A stretch of 64,000 nucleotides of DNA from Pseudovibrio exalbescens (GTDB taxonomy: Bacteria > Pseudomonadota > Alphaproteobacteria > Rhizobiales > Stappiaceae): NCBI RefSeq assembly GCF_028737195.1, contig NZ_JAQZAJ010000001.1:806001-870000 (forward strand), given 5' to 3'. The first letter of the stretch is position 1. Each line of letters begins with the position of its first letter. The notes under the pieces are model-generated. The model was given only the letters and a program-made list of their open reading frames with translations, was not told the DNA's origin and did not search any database. Made by a program: the position numbers and the translations under genes. Below, piece after piece: positions 40,736-48,198 of this stretch.

Positions 40736-41695
40736 ATGACTTTTACTCTACAGAAAACACTTGTAACCCTTGGCTCTTCGCTCGCAATACTACTTAGCGC
40801 AAGCGCAGTGCAGGCGAAGGATCCGGAAGCGTGTGAAACCGTGCGCTTCTCAGATGTAGGCTGGACCGACATCACCGCCACCACTGCAACTGCTGCTGTT
40901 GTATTGGACGCCCTTGGGTATGAGCCAGAGGTAAAAGTTCTCTCCGTACCAGTTACTTACGCATCACTTGCCAACAACGATCTCGACGTTTTTCTTGGCA
41001 ACTGGATGCCTACCATGGAAGCAGATATCGCTGCTTACCGTGAAGCAGGTACCGTTGAAACCATTGCAACAAACCTCGTCGGCGCCAAGTATACATTGGC
41101 AGTACCAAAGTACACTTACGAAGCAGGCCTAAAGTCCTTCGCCGACATCGCCAAGTTCCGTGATGAACTGGATGGCGAAATCTATGGCATCGAAGCGGGC
41201 AACGACGGCAACCGCTTGATCCTGGACATGATCGAGGCCAACGCTTTCGATCTTGAAGGATTTGATCTGGTTGAATCGTCCGAGGCAGGCATGCTTTCAC
41301 AGGTCTCTCGGAAGGTTCGCCGCGAGCAGCCAATCGTCTTCCTTGGCTGGGCACCACATCCGATGAACTCCAACTTCGAGATTGAATATCTTTCAGGTGG
41401 CGACGACTTCTTCGGCCCGAATTATGGCGGCGCGGATGTTCGCACCAACGTGCGTGCAGGCTATACCGCCGAATGTCCGAACGTCGGCAAGTTCCTGACC
41501 CAGCTCACCTTTACGCTTGAGATGGAAAACGAACTGATGAACGCCATTCTCAACGAAGGCGAAGACCCACAGGATGCCGCTCGTGCATGGCTGAAGAACA
41601 ACCCAGAGGTAATTGACGCCTGGCTTGACGGTGTCACTACTTTTGACGGCCAAGACGGCCCGGTTGTGGCCAAGTCCGCCCTCGGCCTTCGGTAA
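40736..41695 (+). CDS. choX: ChoX, periplasmic choline-binding protein
   Basis: The 319-residue protein has a signal peptide (TLGSSLAILLSASAVQA) and the OpuAC/ChoX substrate-binding fold. Aromatic residues for quaternary ammonium are visible in VGWTDITATT, FLGNWMPTME, PIVFLGWAPHPMN and FFGPNYGG, as in the aromatic cage of rhizobial ChoX. It delivers choline to ChoWV. GGGGG precedes the ATG. It is divergent from betI, coupling uptake with oxidation to glycine betaine. Confidence 0.93.
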   Translation: MTFTLQKTLVTLGSSLAILLSASAVQAKDPEACETVRFSDVGWTDITATTATAAVVLDALGYEPEVKVLSVPVTYASLANNDLDVFLGNWMPTMEADIAAYREAGTVETIATNLVGAKYTLAVPKYTYEAGLKSFADIAKFRDELDGEIYGIEAGNDGNRLILDMIEANAFDLEGFDLVESSEAGMLSQVSRKVRREQPIVFLGWAPHPMNSNFEIEYLSGGDDFFGPNYGGADVRTNVRAGYTAECPNVGKFLTQLTFTLEMENELMNAILNEGEDPQDAARAWLKNNPEVIDAWLDGVTTFDGQDGPVVAKSALGLR

Positions 41696-41711
41696 CATAT
41701 TCATTCGCAAG

Positions 41712-41745
41712 GTGGCGGGGGACGCGATTCAGTGCCCCTCGCCAC
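41712..41745 (+). other. Intercistronic stem-loop choX / choW
   Basis: GTGGCGGGGG pairs with CCCCTCGCCAC (one bulge) around a 13-base loop, 16 bp after choX and 43 bp before choW. No T-run, so it is more likely an mRNA stabiliser or partial terminator. Confidence 0.6.
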
Positions 41746-41787
41746 GCGTTCAGTGCTGTTCAAAACACTAAAATTTGAGGTATTCGC

Positions 41788-42636
41788 GTGGATTGGCTAA
41801 CCGACCACAAACTTCCCATTGGCACCTGGGCCAAATGGGTAGTGGACTGGCTTACCGACAATGCCACAGCCCTTTTTGATGGTATCTCTATCGCAATCGA
41901 AGCGATGATTGATGCGGTCTTGTGGGCGCTAACAACACCGCATCCGCTGATAATCGTCGCACTAGCCACAGCGCTCGCCTACGGCGTGCGCCGCAAGATT
42001 GGCTTCTCTGTTTTCGTCGCGCTCAGCCTGCTGCTGATCATCAACCAAGGCTACTGGTCCGAAACCACTGAGACCCTCGCCCTGGTCTTGTGTGCCGCCT
42101 TCATCTGCATGTTGATTGGTGTACCGATTGGCGTTTACAGCGCCCATCATCCCAAGTTTTTCGAATGGATACGGCCTGTTCTTGATCTGATGCAGACGAT
42201 CCCAACCTTCGTCTATTTGATTCCGGCCCTCATCCTGTTTGGATTGGGCGTTGTGCCGGGCCTCATCTCGACCGTCGTGTTCGCACTGCCTGCCTCCATT
42301 CGCCTCACGCAGCTTGGTGTTGTTTCCACACCAACGCATCTTTTGGAAGCAGGTGAGGCATTCGGGGCGACTTACTGGCAAAAGTTGTTCAAGATCGAAC
42401 TCCCCTACGCCCTGCCAAACATCATGGCTGGCCTTACGCAAACCATCATGCTCTCACTCTCCATGGTCGTTATTGCCGCCCTTGTTGGCGCAGATGGTCT
42501 TGGCGTGCCCACCCTTAGGGCACTTAACACGGTGAACATTGCAAAGGGCTTTGAAGTGGGCACGGCAATTGTGCTGGTGGCTATCATCCTGGACCGTTTC
42601 TTCCGCAGCGATCAAAAGACGGAGACAAACAAATGA
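41788..42636 (+). CDS. choW: ChoW, choline ABC permease
   Basis: The 282-residue permease of the ProW/OpuAB family has about seven membrane spans. The family region LDLMQTIPTFVYLIPALILFG and the coupling loop EAGEAFGATYWQKLFKIELP are present. The N-terminal 40 residues (DHKLPIGTWAKWVVDWLTDN) are an amphipathic extension typical of ProW. Its stop overlaps choV by ATGA. The GTG-like region before the ATG has a weak ribosome site. Confidence 0.93.
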   Translation: MDWLTDHKLPIGTWAKWVVDWLTDNATALFDGISIAIEAMIDAVLWALTTPHPLIIVALATALAYGVRRKIGFSVFVALSLLLIINQGYWSETTETLALVLCAAFICMLIGVPIGVYSAHHPKFFEWIRPVLDLMQTIPTFVYLIPALILFGLGVVPGLISTVVFALPASIRLTQLGVVSTPTHLLEAGEAFGATYWQKLFKIELPYALPNIMAGLTQTIMLSLSMVVIAALVGADGLGVPTLRALNTVNIAKGFEVGTAIVLVAIILDRFFRSDQKTETNK

Positions 42637-43691
42637 GAGACTTGAACCCAAGTCGCGCCATCTCCTTTGAGAACGTCTCCATTGTCTTTGGCAACAATCC
42701 TGAGGCAGCGCTTGAACTGGTGGACCAGAACCGTTCGCGAGAGGACATCCTCAAGGAAACAGGTCAGCTGGTTGGTGTCGCCAACGCAAGCTTTGACATT
42801 GAGGAAGGCGAACTGCTGGTTCTCATGGGCCTTTCCGGCTCCGGGAAATCGACCTTGTTGCGCGCCATCAATGGCCTCAACCCGATCAGCCGGGGGGCGG
42901 TTCATGTTTCCAATGGCGATGCATTGGTCAATCCCGGCACTTGCAGCACCAAGGACTTGAGAGAGCTGCGCCGCCACGGCGTTGCCATGGTGTTTCAGCA
43001 GTTCGCGCTGCTGCCATGGCGCACGGTGCGCAGCAACATTGGCTTTGGCCTTGAACTCTCTGGCATTTCGGGCGTAAAAAAGCGGGAGTTGGTTGAACGT
43101 CAGCTGGAACTTGTGGGGCTCAAAGACTACGCAAACAAGTATGTCCATGAGCTTTCAGGCGGCATGCAGCAGCGTGTGGGCCTTGCCCGCGCCTTTGCAA
43201 CGGATGCCCCTATCCTGTTGATGGACGAACCCTTCTCGGCCCTCGACCCGCTCATTCGCGCGCACCTGCAGGACGAGCTTCTGGAACTGCAACAACAGCT
43301 CAACAAGACCATCGTGTTCGTCAGTCACGACCTTGATGAAGCAGCCAAGCTTGGCAGCCGCATTGCAATCATGGAAGGCGGCCATGTTGTGCAGATCGGC
43401 ACTCCGCAGGAAATTGTCACCAAGCCAGTGGATGAGTATGTGGCAAACTTCGTGTCCCACATGAACCCACTCAATGTGCTTCGCGCCAAGGACATCATGA
43501 CGCCCGTCGCGGTGACTGAAGCACCTGTACACGAAGCTGGCCGCCCGAACTGCCTTGCCGACGCGCCGCTCCGGCAGGTCATTGAGGTCAAGAAGGCCAC
43601 CAATGAGCCCATAACAGTGCTCGATCATGGCAAGGTTGTTGGTAGCATCACCGAGTCCGACATTCTGAGCAGCCTCAGTTCGTCGTCCTAG
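42633..43691 (+). CDS. choV: ChoV, choline ABC ATP-binding protein
   Basis: The 352-residue ATPase of the ProV family has Walker A GLSGSGKST (G66-T74), signature LSGGMQQRVGLARA, Walker B ILLMDEPFSALDP and the switch VSHDLDEAAKLG. An N-terminal 50-residue ProV-type extension and a C-terminal CBS-like segment (ITVLDHGKVVGSITESDILSSL) are present; in ProV-type importers the CBS part senses ionic strength. It is coupled to choW through the ATGA overlap and ends the cho operon. Confidence 0.94.
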   Translation: MRDLNPSRAISFENVSIVFGNNPEAALELVDQNRSREDILKETGQLVGVANASFDIEEGELLVLMGLSGSGKSTLLRAINGLNPISRGAVHVSNGDALVNPGTCSTKDLRELRRHGVAMVFQQFALLPWRTVRSNIGFGLELSGISGVKKRELVERQLELVGLKDYANKYVHELSGGMQQRVGLARAFATDAPILLMDEPFSALDPLIRAHLQDELLELQQQLNKTIVFVSHDLDEAAKLGSRIAIMEGGHVVQIGTPQEIVTKPVDEYVANFVSHMNPLNVLRAKDIMTPVAVTEAPVHEAGRPNCLADAPLRQVIEVKKATNEPITVLDHGKVVGSITESDILSSLSSSS

Positions 43692-44460: not shown

Positions 44461-45582
44461 ATGACGAAATGGCATGTCGGAATTGTTGGCGCTGGCAAGA
44501 TTGGCGTCATGATTGCAGCGCTTTTGAAAGAGAGCGGCGATTACACCATAGCCATCTTTGACCAGAACGAAGACGCCTTGAAGGCTCTCAAGGATGTTGA
44601 GCGGGTTCGGATAGACGTCAGCGATGAAGATGCATTGGCTGCGGCGCTTGGAAACGTGGACGCGGTGTTGTCCGCTGCTCCTTTCTTCCTTACCCCGGTT
44701 ATTGCCAGAGCCGCCAAGCGCTCCGACACGCATTACCTAGACCTGACAGAAGACGTATCTTCTACCAATCTCGTAATGGATCTGGCCAAGGATGCCAGCT
44801 CTGCCTTCGCACCGCAATGCGGCCTCGCACCAGGCTTTGTTTCAATTGCCGCCCATGATCTGGCCCGTAAGTTCGACAAGTTGGAGAACCTTACTCTGCG
44901 CGTTGGCGCCCTGCCCCGCTACCCTACAAACCGATTGAAGTACAACCTGACATGGTCTACCGAAGGCCTGATCAACGAGTATTGCAACCCGTGCCTTGCC
45001 ATTGTTGATGGCACATTGACGGAGGTCGCGCCGCTTGAAGGACTGGAAACGTTCTCGCTTGAAGGCGTAGACTACGAAGCGTTCAATACCTCTGGTGGCC
45101 TTGGGTCCTTGCATGAAACCCTTCGCGGCAAAGTTAACTCTCTCAAATACCTAAGCATTCGCTATCCTGGCCACCGGGAAATCATCAGCCTTCTGCTTCA
45201 AGATCTGGGCCTCAAGAACCGCCGCGATCTTTTGAAAGAGGTGATGGAGACCGCGCTGCCGACCACCAAGCAGGATGTCGTTGTAGTATTCATTACAGCA
45301 AGCGGCATGATTGACGGTCGTCTGGAAGAACGTTCCTACCTGAACGAGATCAACGCTGGCCAGATTGCAGGCACTCACTGGAGTGCGATCCAGATCACAA
45401 CGGCTGCCGGCATTTGCGCAACGCTGGACATGATCCGCGAGGGACGCCTTGCCAAATCTGGCTTCATCAAGCAGGAGGACATTCCTCTTGAAGCGTTTCT
45501 GGCGAACCGCTTCGGCGCGCTTTATTTGGGGCACCGGTCAATTCAAGACAACGGGGAGCCGAAATTGCTCGCCGCAGAGTAA
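44461..45582 (+). CDS. Saccharopine dehydrogenase-family enzyme, likely lysine 6-dehydrogenase
   Basis: The 373-residue protein has an N-terminal NAD(P)-binding motif HVGIVGAGKIGVMIAALLKES and the saccharopine-dehydrogenase C-terminal domain (APQCGLAPGFVSIAAHDLA, LKYNLTWSTEGLINEYCNPC). Length and these motifs fit lysine 6-dehydrogenase, which turns lysine into 2-aminoadipate semialdehyde (cyclising to piperideine carboxylate) for breakdown. Other members (saccharopine or carboxynorspermidine dehydrogenases) are possible. An Lrp regulator lies directly upstream. GGAGGG precedes the ATG; a terminator follows. Confidence 0.82.
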   Translation: MTKWHVGIVGAGKIGVMIAALLKESGDYTIAIFDQNEDALKALKDVERVRIDVSDEDALAAALGNVDAVLSAAPFFLTPVIARAAKRSDTHYLDLTEDVSSTNLVMDLAKDASSAFAPQCGLAPGFVSIAAHDLARKFDKLENLTLRVGALPRYPTNRLKYNLTWSTEGLINEYCNPCLAIVDGTLTEVAPLEGLETFSLEGVDYEAFNTSGGLGSLHETLRGKVNSLKYLSIRYPGHREIISLLLQDLGLKNRRDLLKEVMETALPTTKQDVVVVFITASGMIDGRLEERSYLNEINAGQIAGTHWSAIQITTAAGICATLDMIREGRLAKSGFIKQEDIPLEAFLANRFGALYLGHRSIQDNGEPKLLAAE

Positions 45583-45606
45583 CAAAAAGACCGCTTTAAC
45601 TGTTTT

Positions 45607-45633
45607 CGGCCTGAATTGAATGGATTCAGGCCG
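45607..45633 (+). terminator. Rho-independent terminator after the lysine dehydrogenase gene
   Basis: Perfect 10-bp stem CGGCCTGAAT / ATTCAGGCCG with a 7-base loop, then TCTTCTT. Confidence 0.75.
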
Positions 45634-45697
45634 TCTTCTTGATCACTCAGGAAAGGTCAGGCACGGTGCATCTATAAAAACCAGAAGAAGATGCCCC

Positions 45698-46183
45698 ATG
45701 TTTTCACGCCCCCAAAACCTAAAAATGCTCGCCAGTGCCCTTGCATTGATCTTTGGCTACGCTCCCACAATCGCAGCACAGACCACTCTTCAAAAAGCAA
45801 CATTGCCACCCCTTGCGGTTTACAAGGAGCTTGCTGAGGGCTCCCAGTTCACGAGCTGGGTCACATTTCAGGAAACGGCCGACCAGCAGATCATCCACTT
45901 CAAACCGATCCTGCTTCTGCATTGCCGGTTGAAGGAGCTGCGTTATTCCATTGACAACAAGGGCCTTAAGGAACGTTTCCCGGTTCCGCCCTGCAATTCT
46001 GTGGCGCCCTTTGCCATGCCGAGCAGCACCTCATTGGCAGACACCGCTTTGGTTCTTGCTCCCGGGACGGCTGACGCCGTTGCTGTTCAAGTGATCTGGC
46101 AGGATGGGTCTGCCAGCCGTGTTGGATACTTCGAACCGTGCCGGGACGTCGGTTCAGTTCCCTGCGCCTATCCGCTGAATTAG
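45698..46183 (+). CDS. Exported protein of unknown function
   Basis: About 161 residues from the ATG at 45698 (AGAAGAAG upstream). A signal peptide (LASALALIFGYAPTIAAQ) is followed by a beta-rich domain with four cysteines (LLLHCRLKE, VPPCNSV, YFEPCRDVGSVPCAY), which suggests disulfides in the periplasm. Invasion-associated-locus-B-like proteins have a similar size and layout, but the sequence match is too weak for me to assign it. It is monocistronic: a terminator lies upstream and the next gene is convergent. Confidence 0.7.
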   Translation: MFSRPQNLKMLASALALIFGYAPTIAAQTTLQKATLPPLAVYKELAEGSQFTSWVTFQETADQQIIHFKPILLLHCRLKELRYSIDNKGLKERFPVPPCNSVAPFAMPSSTSLADTALVLAPGTADAVAVQVIWQDGSASRVGYFEPCRDVGSVPCAYPLN

Positions 46184-46214
46184 CTTCAAGCAGATAGGCC
46201 CAGAAGTATCTCGT

Positions 46215-46991
46215 TCAGCTCGGGCCAGTTAGATTGATTGGGCCCCTAGACGCGCTCAAGCCCCCATCCACCGGCAAATTAACGCCGGTAATGAAAGAAG
46301 CCTGATCACTTGCCAAAAAGAAGACCGCATTAGCCACTTCAACCGGCTTTGCAATCCGCTTCAACGGGACGGACTTGGCGTAATTCACAAGGTCACTTGG
46401 CGCAGCCCCTCTTGCAAACAACTTGCTGGCAAGCGCCATGGGCGAAACAGCGTTCACCCGAATGCCGTAGTCTGCATAGTCCAGTGCCATTGATTGTGTC
46501 AGGTTGAGAACGGCACCATTTGCAGAAGTAGACACAGCTGTACTACCACCGGTAAGCCCATCAGCATCCGAAGTAATGTTGACCACGGCACCACCGTGCT
46601 GCTCCATCATCATGGGCAAGATGTGTTTGCACGTGAGAAACACGCCCTTCACATCCACGTCGAAAACCCGCTCCCACGCGAAGACTTCCATCTGGTGTAC
46701 CGCGCCACACTTCAGGTTGGCTGCGTTGTTCACCAGAATATCGCATCCGCCAAGGCGCTCTGCCACCGCACCCGCTGTTTCCTTGACGCTCTGTTCTGAA
46801 GAGAGATTACAACGGCAATACTCTATGGTGACTGCGTCATTGATTGCTTTCAGTTCGTCGGCTACGGCTTCCCCATCGTCGCGATGTTCGATGCCAGTGA
46901 ACAGCACGTGGTTGCCAGCTTCTACGAAGCGCTTCACCACATCCTTGCCGAACCGTGAGGTGCCGCCAGTGACCACAACTCTTTTGTTCAT
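46215..46991 (-). CDS. SDR-fold protein lacking catalytic residues
   Basis: The 258-residue chain has the SDR layout from start to end (VVVTGGTSRFGKDVV, DILVNNAA, GAVVNITSDADGLTGG, GIRVNAVSPMA, GVNLPVDGG). Yet the Tyr and Lys of the YxxxK active site are Ser154 and Asn158 (VSTSANGAVLNL), the helix-4 Asn is Asp113, and the third glycine of the TGxxxGxG nucleotide loop is Arg13. Only Ser141 of the tetrad remains. The frame is otherwise intact and well conserved, so this is a probable pseudoenzyme or a protein with changed chemistry rather than a decaying gene. It is divergent from an IclR regulator. Confidence 0.85.
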   Translation of the reverse strand: MNKRVVVTGGTSRFGKDVVKRFVEAGNHVLFTGIEHRDDGEAVADELKAINDAVTIEYCRCNLSSEQSVKETAGAVAERLGGCDILVNNAANLKCGAVHQMEVFAWERVFDVDVKGVFLTCKHILPMMMEQHGGAVVNITSDADGLTGGSTAVSTSANGAVLNLTQSMALDYADYGIRVNAVSPMALASKLFARGAAPSDLVNYAKSVPLKRIAKPVEVANAVFFLASDQASFITGVNLPVDGGLSASRGPINLTGPS

Positions 46992-47430
46992 TTTTTACTC
47001 CACGCCACAAGCGCAACGCTTCCCAGCGCTGCTTATTCTCTCCAGAACCCGTTAGAACCACGTGTCACCGGAAAGCTCACCCAAAGGCGGTTCCCAATGA
47101 ACCTCCGCTAATTTGCCACACGGGATCATTAGGTGTACGCCGCGAAAACCACAGGGTGATCAAAGTGTTCAATACCAATCCTTGAGTGTGTATCACGCAC
47201 ACATTTAAAAACAATGACGTGTTTACCAACAATGGATAGGTTGCATGCACTACGTCATAACCCCATGCGACAGTGTGTTTTTTCCCAATGGTTTGACAAT
47301 AAGGAACCAGTTCGAATATTTTCAACAGAGGGCAGTTCTTGAAAATCATCTTCTGCGTTAAGCGCAAGCACCCGTTGTGATTGAGAGACCTTCGTGAACC
47401 GGCGGCACTAGGTAAGAAAGTTTTTGAACC
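46992..47430. other. 439-bp divergent region SDR / IclR
   Basis: No convincing gene; an open frame at 47077-47367 on the minus strand has no recognisable content. The region carries several GAACC elements (near 47099, 47304, 47395, 47425), an inverted repeat listed next, and GTGTGT/ACACA arms near 47186-47203. Promoters for both genes must be here. Confidence 0.45.
47089..47103. promoter_or_regulatory. Candidate IclR operator
   Basis: GGTTC-CCAAT-GAACC is a perfect 5-bp-arm palindrome 98 bp upstream of the SDR start. IclR-family sites are often short dyads with GGTTC/GAACC-like arms. A second GAAC-CA-GTTC dyad lies at 47304-47313. Confidence 0.45.
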
Positions 47431-48198
47431 TTGGAACAGAAGAAGACAAACCAGTCAATTGACCGTGCCGTGAGCATACTCAGCTTCATTGCAGAGAATG
47501 GGAACAGCGCACGCTTGATGGATATGTGTGATGCTCTGGACCTAAAAAAGAGCACGTTGCACGGCATTCTCGCCACCATGCAGATCCATGGGCTGATCAC
47601 TCAAGACACAGACACCTCCCGTTACTCGCTGGGCATCAAGCTGTTCGAGCTGGGCAAGATCTACGAAGAGAATTTCTCCTTGCGCCAAGTCATTCGGCCA
47701 ACTCTGGAGCGGCTTTCAGCGGAGTTCAAGGAAAGTGTTCATGTGGGCATCTTGACCGAAGATAGCGTGCTTTACATGGACCGTATAGACTCGCCCTACT
47801 CCATTCGCGTTGCTGCAAAGGCAGGCCACAAAGCGCCGCTCTATTGCACCGCCATGGGGAAAGGGATTCTGGCCTACTCCAGCGAACAGCGTCAGGAAGA
47901 CTACCTTGCCAAAGGCCCGTTTCCGCGGCTGACGGAAAACACGCTCTGCACAGCAGACGAGCTTCGCGCCGAGTTGCGGGCCATCCGCCAACGCCAGTGG
48001 TCCATCGACAACGAAGAAGTCGAGATGGGTCTGATCTGCATTGCCTCACCTGTGGTGAATGGCGATGGCAAAGTAATTGCCGCCATCGGCATCAGTGGCC
48101 CCAAGCACCGAACGGATGAAGCAACTCTGGACTCCTGGAAGGCCGCCATTCCAGCGGCGGCACGGGATCTGTCCCAAACGATGCGCTTTACCCGCTAA
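47431..48198 (+). CDS. IclR-family transcriptional regulator
   Basis: The 255-residue protein has an N-terminal winged helix (SIDRAVSILSFIAENGNSARL with DLKKSTLHGILATM) and the C-terminal IclR ligand domain (YCTAMGKGILAYSS, EEVEMGLICIASPV, AAIGISGP). The start is TTG at 47431 with a weak ribosome site. It is divergent from the SDR-fold gene and convergent with mmsA, so the SDR gene is the likely target. The effector is unknown. Confidence 0.9.
   Translation: MEQKKTNQSIDRAVSILSFIAENGNSARLMDMCDALDLKKSTLHGILATMQIHGLITQDTDTSRYSLGIKLFELGKIYEENFSLRQVIRPTLERLSAEFKESVHVGILTEDSVLYMDRIDSPYSIRVAAKAGHKAPLYCTAMGKGILAYSSEQRQEDYLAKGPFPRLTENTLCTADELRAELRAIRQRQWSIDNEEVEMGLICIASPVVNGDGKVIAAIGISGPKHRTDEATLDSWKAAIPAAARDLSQTMRFTR

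Follow-up and report, generated by a model that had tools for sequence, protein, structure and literature searches.

The window is a stretch of 64,000 nucleotides from Pseudovibrio exalbescens. It contains an SDR gene on the minus strand and a divergent gene for an IclR-family regulator (iclR). The features are as follows.

46215..46991, minus strand: predicted classical-SDR pseudoenzyme gene, 258 aa (Pfam, AlphaFold2, Foldseek and VIA-align)
46518..46520, minus strand: codon 158, AAT (Asn), canonically the catalytic Lys
46530..46532, minus strand: codon 154, TCT (Ser), canonically the catalytic Tyr
46569..46571, minus strand: codon 141, TCG, the catalytic Ser, which is kept
46653..46655, minus strand: codon 113, GAT (Asp), canonically the helix-4 Asn
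46953..46955, minus strand: codon 13, CGG (Arg), canonically the second Gly of TGxxxGxG
46998..47001, minus strand: GGAG, Shine-Dalgarno-like, 6 bases 5' of the ATG of the SDR gene, read from the sequence
47431..48198, plus strand: IclR-family regulator gene, divergent from the SDR gene (PF01614, 159.5 bits)

The ORF of the SDR gene contains 258 codons on the minus strand. It starts with ATG at 46991, and the TGA stop ends at 46215. Its codon adaptation was 0.684, compared with 0.717 +/- 0.035 for the 38 other long ORFs of the window. The assembly was 99.96% complete with 0.06% contamination. An earlier note had called the gene intact, and the open frame, the Shine-Dalgarno-like GGAG, and the normal codon usage bear this out.

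The protein is a classical SDR by fold and homology. Pfam matched it to PF13561 (174.9 bits, residues 15-246) and PF00106 (141.1 bits, residues 3-192). It fell below the curated cut-off in each of the 25 NCBIfam models listed (the best 25 of 223 matched). It scored 203 bits against NF052558 (meso-2,3-butanediol dehydrogenase), where the cut-off of 270 places it outside the family, and 195.4 bits against NF005559 (cut-off 215). The AlphaFold2 model had a mean pLDDT of 92.7 and a pTM of 0.91. Its weakest block, except for the C-terminus, was residues 141-150, which adjoin the active site. VIA-align returned SDR entries with Z of 34.6-36.6 over about 240 residues (best 50 listed), and Foldseek agreed. 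The fold matches include 6vsp, 4jro, and 3osu. The earlier note's claim that the fold motifs are kept also holds, given the profile match, the confident model, and the ordinary scaffold score reported below.

The protein has the catalytic Ser of active SDRs and lacks both TGxxxGxG and YxxxK. Codons and alignment together confirmed all the replacements that the earlier note had read, which were Ser154 and Asn158 in YxxxK, Asp113, and Arg13 in the TGxxxGxG loop. The alignment drew on 86 loci (L002-L082 and L093-L097) and their ORFs of 200 codons or more. It contained the 87 relatives that matched the protein by blastp at E<=1e-18, aligned with MAFFT. Position 13 is Gly in 86 of the 87 and Asp in 1. 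Position 154 is Tyr in 83 and, as aligned, Phe in 4. Position 158 is Lys in all 87. By these column counts, Arg13, Ser154, and Asn158 are very unusual, occurring in none of the 87. Position 113 is Asn in 81 and Asp in 3. Asp113 by itself is not unusual, and a relative with 40% identity (L003) has Asp there too, with Tyr and Lys intact. Ser141 is shared with 80 of the 87.

Consensus reaches 80% or more in 39 columns, and the protein departs from it in 10 of them. Its relatives depart in 2.9 columns on average (SD 2.4), and 1 of the 87 also reaches 10. Six of the ten departures (F14, N62, A91, D113, V136, and S189) occur in some relatives. N27 is absent from the residues listed for its alignment column. 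Further changes, which the earlier note did not list, turn NNAG into NNAA (A91) and the PG motif into P184-M185; we take positions 91 and 185 to be cofactor-contact positions of SDRs. Ser141, N88, G9, and G15 are retained. Tyr and Lys are both retained in all 15 of the other SDRs matched in this genome at E<=1e-10. For three of these 15, the matched stretch contained a single stop codon, and the corresponding stop-free ORF was used.

PMC10211241 defines pseudoenzymes by sequence, as lacking conserved catalytic motifs. By its sequence, the protein is a predicted SDR pseudoenzyme under this definition, with catalytic residues absent and the fold kept.

Each of the four noncanonical codons (13, 113, 154, and 158) is one base from a canonical codon. 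A sequencing or assembly error could produce single-base changes of this kind. It would, however, take four independent errors in an intact gene of a nearly complete assembly, which is very unlikely, and A91 and M185 would need additional errors. We regard error as an extremely improbable source of the unusual residues. The single-base distances also fit an SDR that was inactivated recently. Such a gene would have lost its use in one lineage, gained point mutations in the active site, and be drifting to loss with no function. We consider this unlikely but a serious alternative, and the leading one. The frame, the Shine-Dalgarno-like site, and the codon usage all look normal and count against it.

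Recent inactivation was also weighed against the distribution of the changes along the protein. Conservation was scored with leave-one-out profiles as the mean log-probability over 222 scaffold columns and 23 cofactor/catalytic columns. The 23 positions are in part assumed from classical SDR structures. The scaffold columns scored z +0.13 (rank 44 of 88). The site columns scored z -5.5, the lowest of 88. Against the 27 relatives without a neighbour above 50% identity, the scaffold scored +0.61 and the site -5.1. A control profile from the same genome was run because the 87 relatives had been selected by similarity to the protein, which favors its scaffold score. With the profile from the 15 other same-genome SDRs, the scaffold scored z -0.56 (rank 5 of 16) and the site z -6.2 (rank 1 of 16). 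This control lessens the selection bias, yet it rests on 15 sequences.

The loss is concentrated at the cofactor/catalytic site, although the separation is not absolute. The 20 worst columns comprise 15 scaffold columns and 5 site columns (13, 14, 154, 158, and 185), which is 15 of 222 compared with 5 of 23. The worst two (C59 and C83) are both scaffold columns. Taken overall, the scaffold shows no relaxation, which argues against recent inactivation. Neutral drift was simulated on 14 intact SDR genes with 20 to 400 random substitutions and no indels. At every load, the four losses coincided with an open frame in <0.1%, a joint figure that is the product of two simulated rates. Random drift to this state is therefore rare in the simulation, and simple decay accounts poorly for the pattern. 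One residue may have been lost first, by chance or by selection, and the remaining site positions may then have come under weaker constraint.

Relatives found in the genome, contig, and plasmid searches reached at most 41% identity. The genome sets contained 101 mixed relatives and 87 family, 397 order, 385 class, and 398 phylum genomes. The sets overlap, and those from order to phylum are samples with about 6 candidates scored per genome. The best non-self match was 41% identical at cut-offs of E<=1e-38 to 1e-42, outside which weaker SDRs fall. At E<=1e-38, the protein was matched in 1 of the 87 family genomes, a set that includes 16 genus genomes. Its restriction to one genome fits recent inactivation, as does the lack of a relative above 41% that could reveal constraint on the new residues. 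No close copy, with or without Tyr and Lys, was present in the genus genomes searched. No homologue among the relatives found shares both Ser154 and Asn158.

The genome-contig scan, which seeds on exact peptide words and misses relatives without them, found 119 relatives; the best 80 of the 119 were kept, and the highest identity was 40%. The plasmid search matched at least 5000 records, all below 60% identity, and the best among the matches listed was about 40%. Viral contigs gave 11 pattern matches with no relative of the protein among them. A recent paralogous duplication was considered and rejected, as the best match elsewhere in the genome was 36%.

In the genome-contig scan, the relative at L003 (7998-9534) came closest. 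Beside it lie genes of a sugar ABC transporter and another SDR gene, whose product matches the KduD model below that model's cut-off. This context is suggestive of sugar metabolism for an ancestor of the protein, and L003 is too distant to use.

The SDR ORF and the divergent iclR are separated by 439 bp. The earlier note had given the SDR gene its own IclR regulator, which the comparison with genome G011 does not support. G011 has an iclR that is 80% identical and lies in the same syntenic place. Among the other genus genomes, G011 alone has a close iclR, and the rest had no iclR relative above 35% among the matches listed. No SDR like this one was found in the 15 kb around the G011 iclR, and neither blastn nor tblastn found an SDR remnant in the G011 gap. 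The iclR cannot be called the SDR's own because it is common to G011 while the SDR is not, and the two genes do not co-occur as an IclR-controlled pair would. G011 has the syntenic place without the SDR gene; the gene is therefore not needed throughout the genus. Its absence there also fits recent inactivation. DNA similarity between the window and G011 ends at 45515 and restarts at 47428. The history may be a gain in the window lineage or a loss in G011.

At E<=1e-50, a single one of the 397 order genomes sampled gave a match to the IclR protein, and it was the protein's own genome; the sample did not include G011, which scores 1e-136. The best plasmid relative was about 38% identical among the 15 matches listed, several of which are annotated KdgR. 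Comparison of the regions upstream of the two iclR genes gave two overlapping 12-mers at one mismatch, where five shuffles gave 0, 0, 0, 1, and 1. Allowing three mismatches gave no 16-mer, and the regions had no common palindrome. An operator common to both species was considered and not adopted.

The saccharopine-dehydrogenase-like gene upstream is present in 16 of 16 genus genomes. Besides G011, six genus genomes were inspected by stretch (G001, G003, G005, G010, G012, and G013). They contain asnC, the saccharopine-dehydrogenase-like gene, and an ABC-exporter-like pair, then a methylmalonate-semialdehyde-dehydrogenase-like gene and a lysR-like gene. Two of the six have the 187-aa ORF after the pair. 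The pair in G003, the sole genome family-tested, is CydC and CydD (NCBIfam, above cut-off). Of the 16 genus genomes, 14 have a gene more than 50% identical to the G003 cydD. G000 (the window genome) and G011 have only a cydD relative of 35-36%, located elsewhere. The G011 locus contains iclR and no ABC pair, and the window locus contains the 187-aa ORF, the SDR gene, and iclR. Window 45516-47427 and G011:C5 (L098 7501-8008) thus have iclR where the six others carry the pair. From these sequences, a shared replacement of the CydC/CydD-like pair by iclR in the window species and G011 is possible.

The 187-aa ORF (45620-46183) has a signal-like N-terminus. It is present in 11 of the 16 genus genomes and absent from G011. 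Neither Pfam (at E<=1e-3) nor NCBIfam gave a match to it. We presume that it resembles invasion-associated locus B proteins. A choline-type ABC transporter cluster (40736-43691) immediately precedes asnC and the saccharopine-dehydrogenase-like gene and is also present in G011. Its substrate-binding protein is above the TIGR03414 cut-off (475 compared with 379 bits).

The divergent arrangement with iclR raised the idea that the protein is a nucleotide or metabolite sensor acting on expression, NmrA-like and tied to the iclR. BssK, a candidate regulator that has an SDR fold but lacks the canonical active-site residues, is a precedent (PMC7285207). However, BssK is called an atypical SDR there, whereas the fold of this protein is classical and FabG-like. 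The close iclR of G011 exists without the SDR, and no clear element is common to the two iclR upstream regions. A sensor of this kind is a slim prospect. It is about equally improbable that the protein is a lineage-specific SDR in which Ser154, Asn158, and Arg13 remodel the site for a new activity without hydride transfer or for ligand sensing. The earlier note had suggested a sensor or a new chemistry, and neither guess gained positive evidence. A noncatalytic pseudoenzyme is the more economical reading.

We therefore favor an SDR pseudoenzyme with ordinary scaffold constraint and a structural or binding role, most likely as a partner in an SDR hetero-oligomer, and give this account about an even chance of being right. 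It is probably a pseudoenzyme of a single lineage, kept for oligomerization or binding. The protein has lost the Tyr proton donor, its partner Lys, the helix-4 Asn, and one Gly of the dinucleotide loop. Judged from its sequence, it would most likely fold and oligomerize without transferring hydride, and it would not carry out the standard NAD(P)-dependent alcohol/ketone reaction. The remaining role would be structural or binding. The likeliest role would be that of a noncatalytic member of an SDR hetero-oligomer, as reported for BbsC. The active SDR partner would be encoded elsewhere in the genome. No such partner adjoins the gene, whose neighbors are the 187-aa ORF and iclR, and the other same-genome SDRs (E<=1e-10) all lie outside the window. 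As a second-ranked role, the protein may hold a ligand or nucleotide without turnover.

It is doubtful, though less so than a sensor, that the protein is still an enzyme. Ser141 and groups of the substrate would then perform a slow or specialized reduction, or a nonredox reaction would proceed without Tyr and Lys. The retained Ser141, N88, G9, and G15 are compatible with this. SimC7 works without YxxxK and keeps its Ser (Ser-Ile-His), with a proposed substrate-assisted mechanism (PMC5039031). It binds NADP, however, and one replacement triad residue holds the nicotinamide ribose (PMC5039031); by inference, this residue is His112. The protein lacks Lys, G13, G91, G185, and N113, and these changes argue against normal cofactor binding. 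It also has no pathway context around it.

The noncatalytic reading bears on annotation. A strong SDR profile match can mask the fact that most of the catalytic machinery is gone; profile-based annotation would label this protein an SDR oxidoreductase. Its concentrated loss on an ordinary scaffold raises the question of whether bacterial SDR pseudo-subunits are commoner than the few cases on record. The case is of modest importance, since the searches yielded a single sequence of this kind.

Four groups of known proteins can be compared with it. Its best sequence and fold matches are the meso-2,3-butanediol and glucose 1-dehydrogenase-like classical SDRs, which are FabG-like. Unlike them, it scores below the family cut-offs and does not have the catalytic Tyr and Lys.

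NmrA is an atypical SDR. The NmrA-like and BssK-like regulators have an SDR fold without canonical site residues, as does this protein. It differs from BssK in matching classical SDRs over its whole length.

SimC7 also keeps the Ser with both YxxxK residues replaced. It has a nucleotide-binding domain and a smaller substrate-binding domain (PMC5039031). It binds NADP and is active, whereas the protein described here matches single-domain classical SDRs and has extra changes in the cofactor loop.

BbsC is reported to be an inactive pseudoenzyme subunit of the heterotetrameric BbsCD, an (alpha-hydroxybenzyl)succinyl-CoA dehydrogenase (title of a paper cited in PMC10818641). It is a bacterial SDR subunit reported to be inactive, as this protein is predicted to be by its sequence. 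The gene bbsC clusters with its partner bbsD, whereas the gene in the window stands alone. The VIA-align match 7pcs_B is BbsD, the structure of the active partner and not of BbsC. BbsC diverges faster than its pathway partners, with at most 45% identity compared with 73-84% (PMC7285207). This rapid divergence parallels the absence of close relatives of the protein described here.
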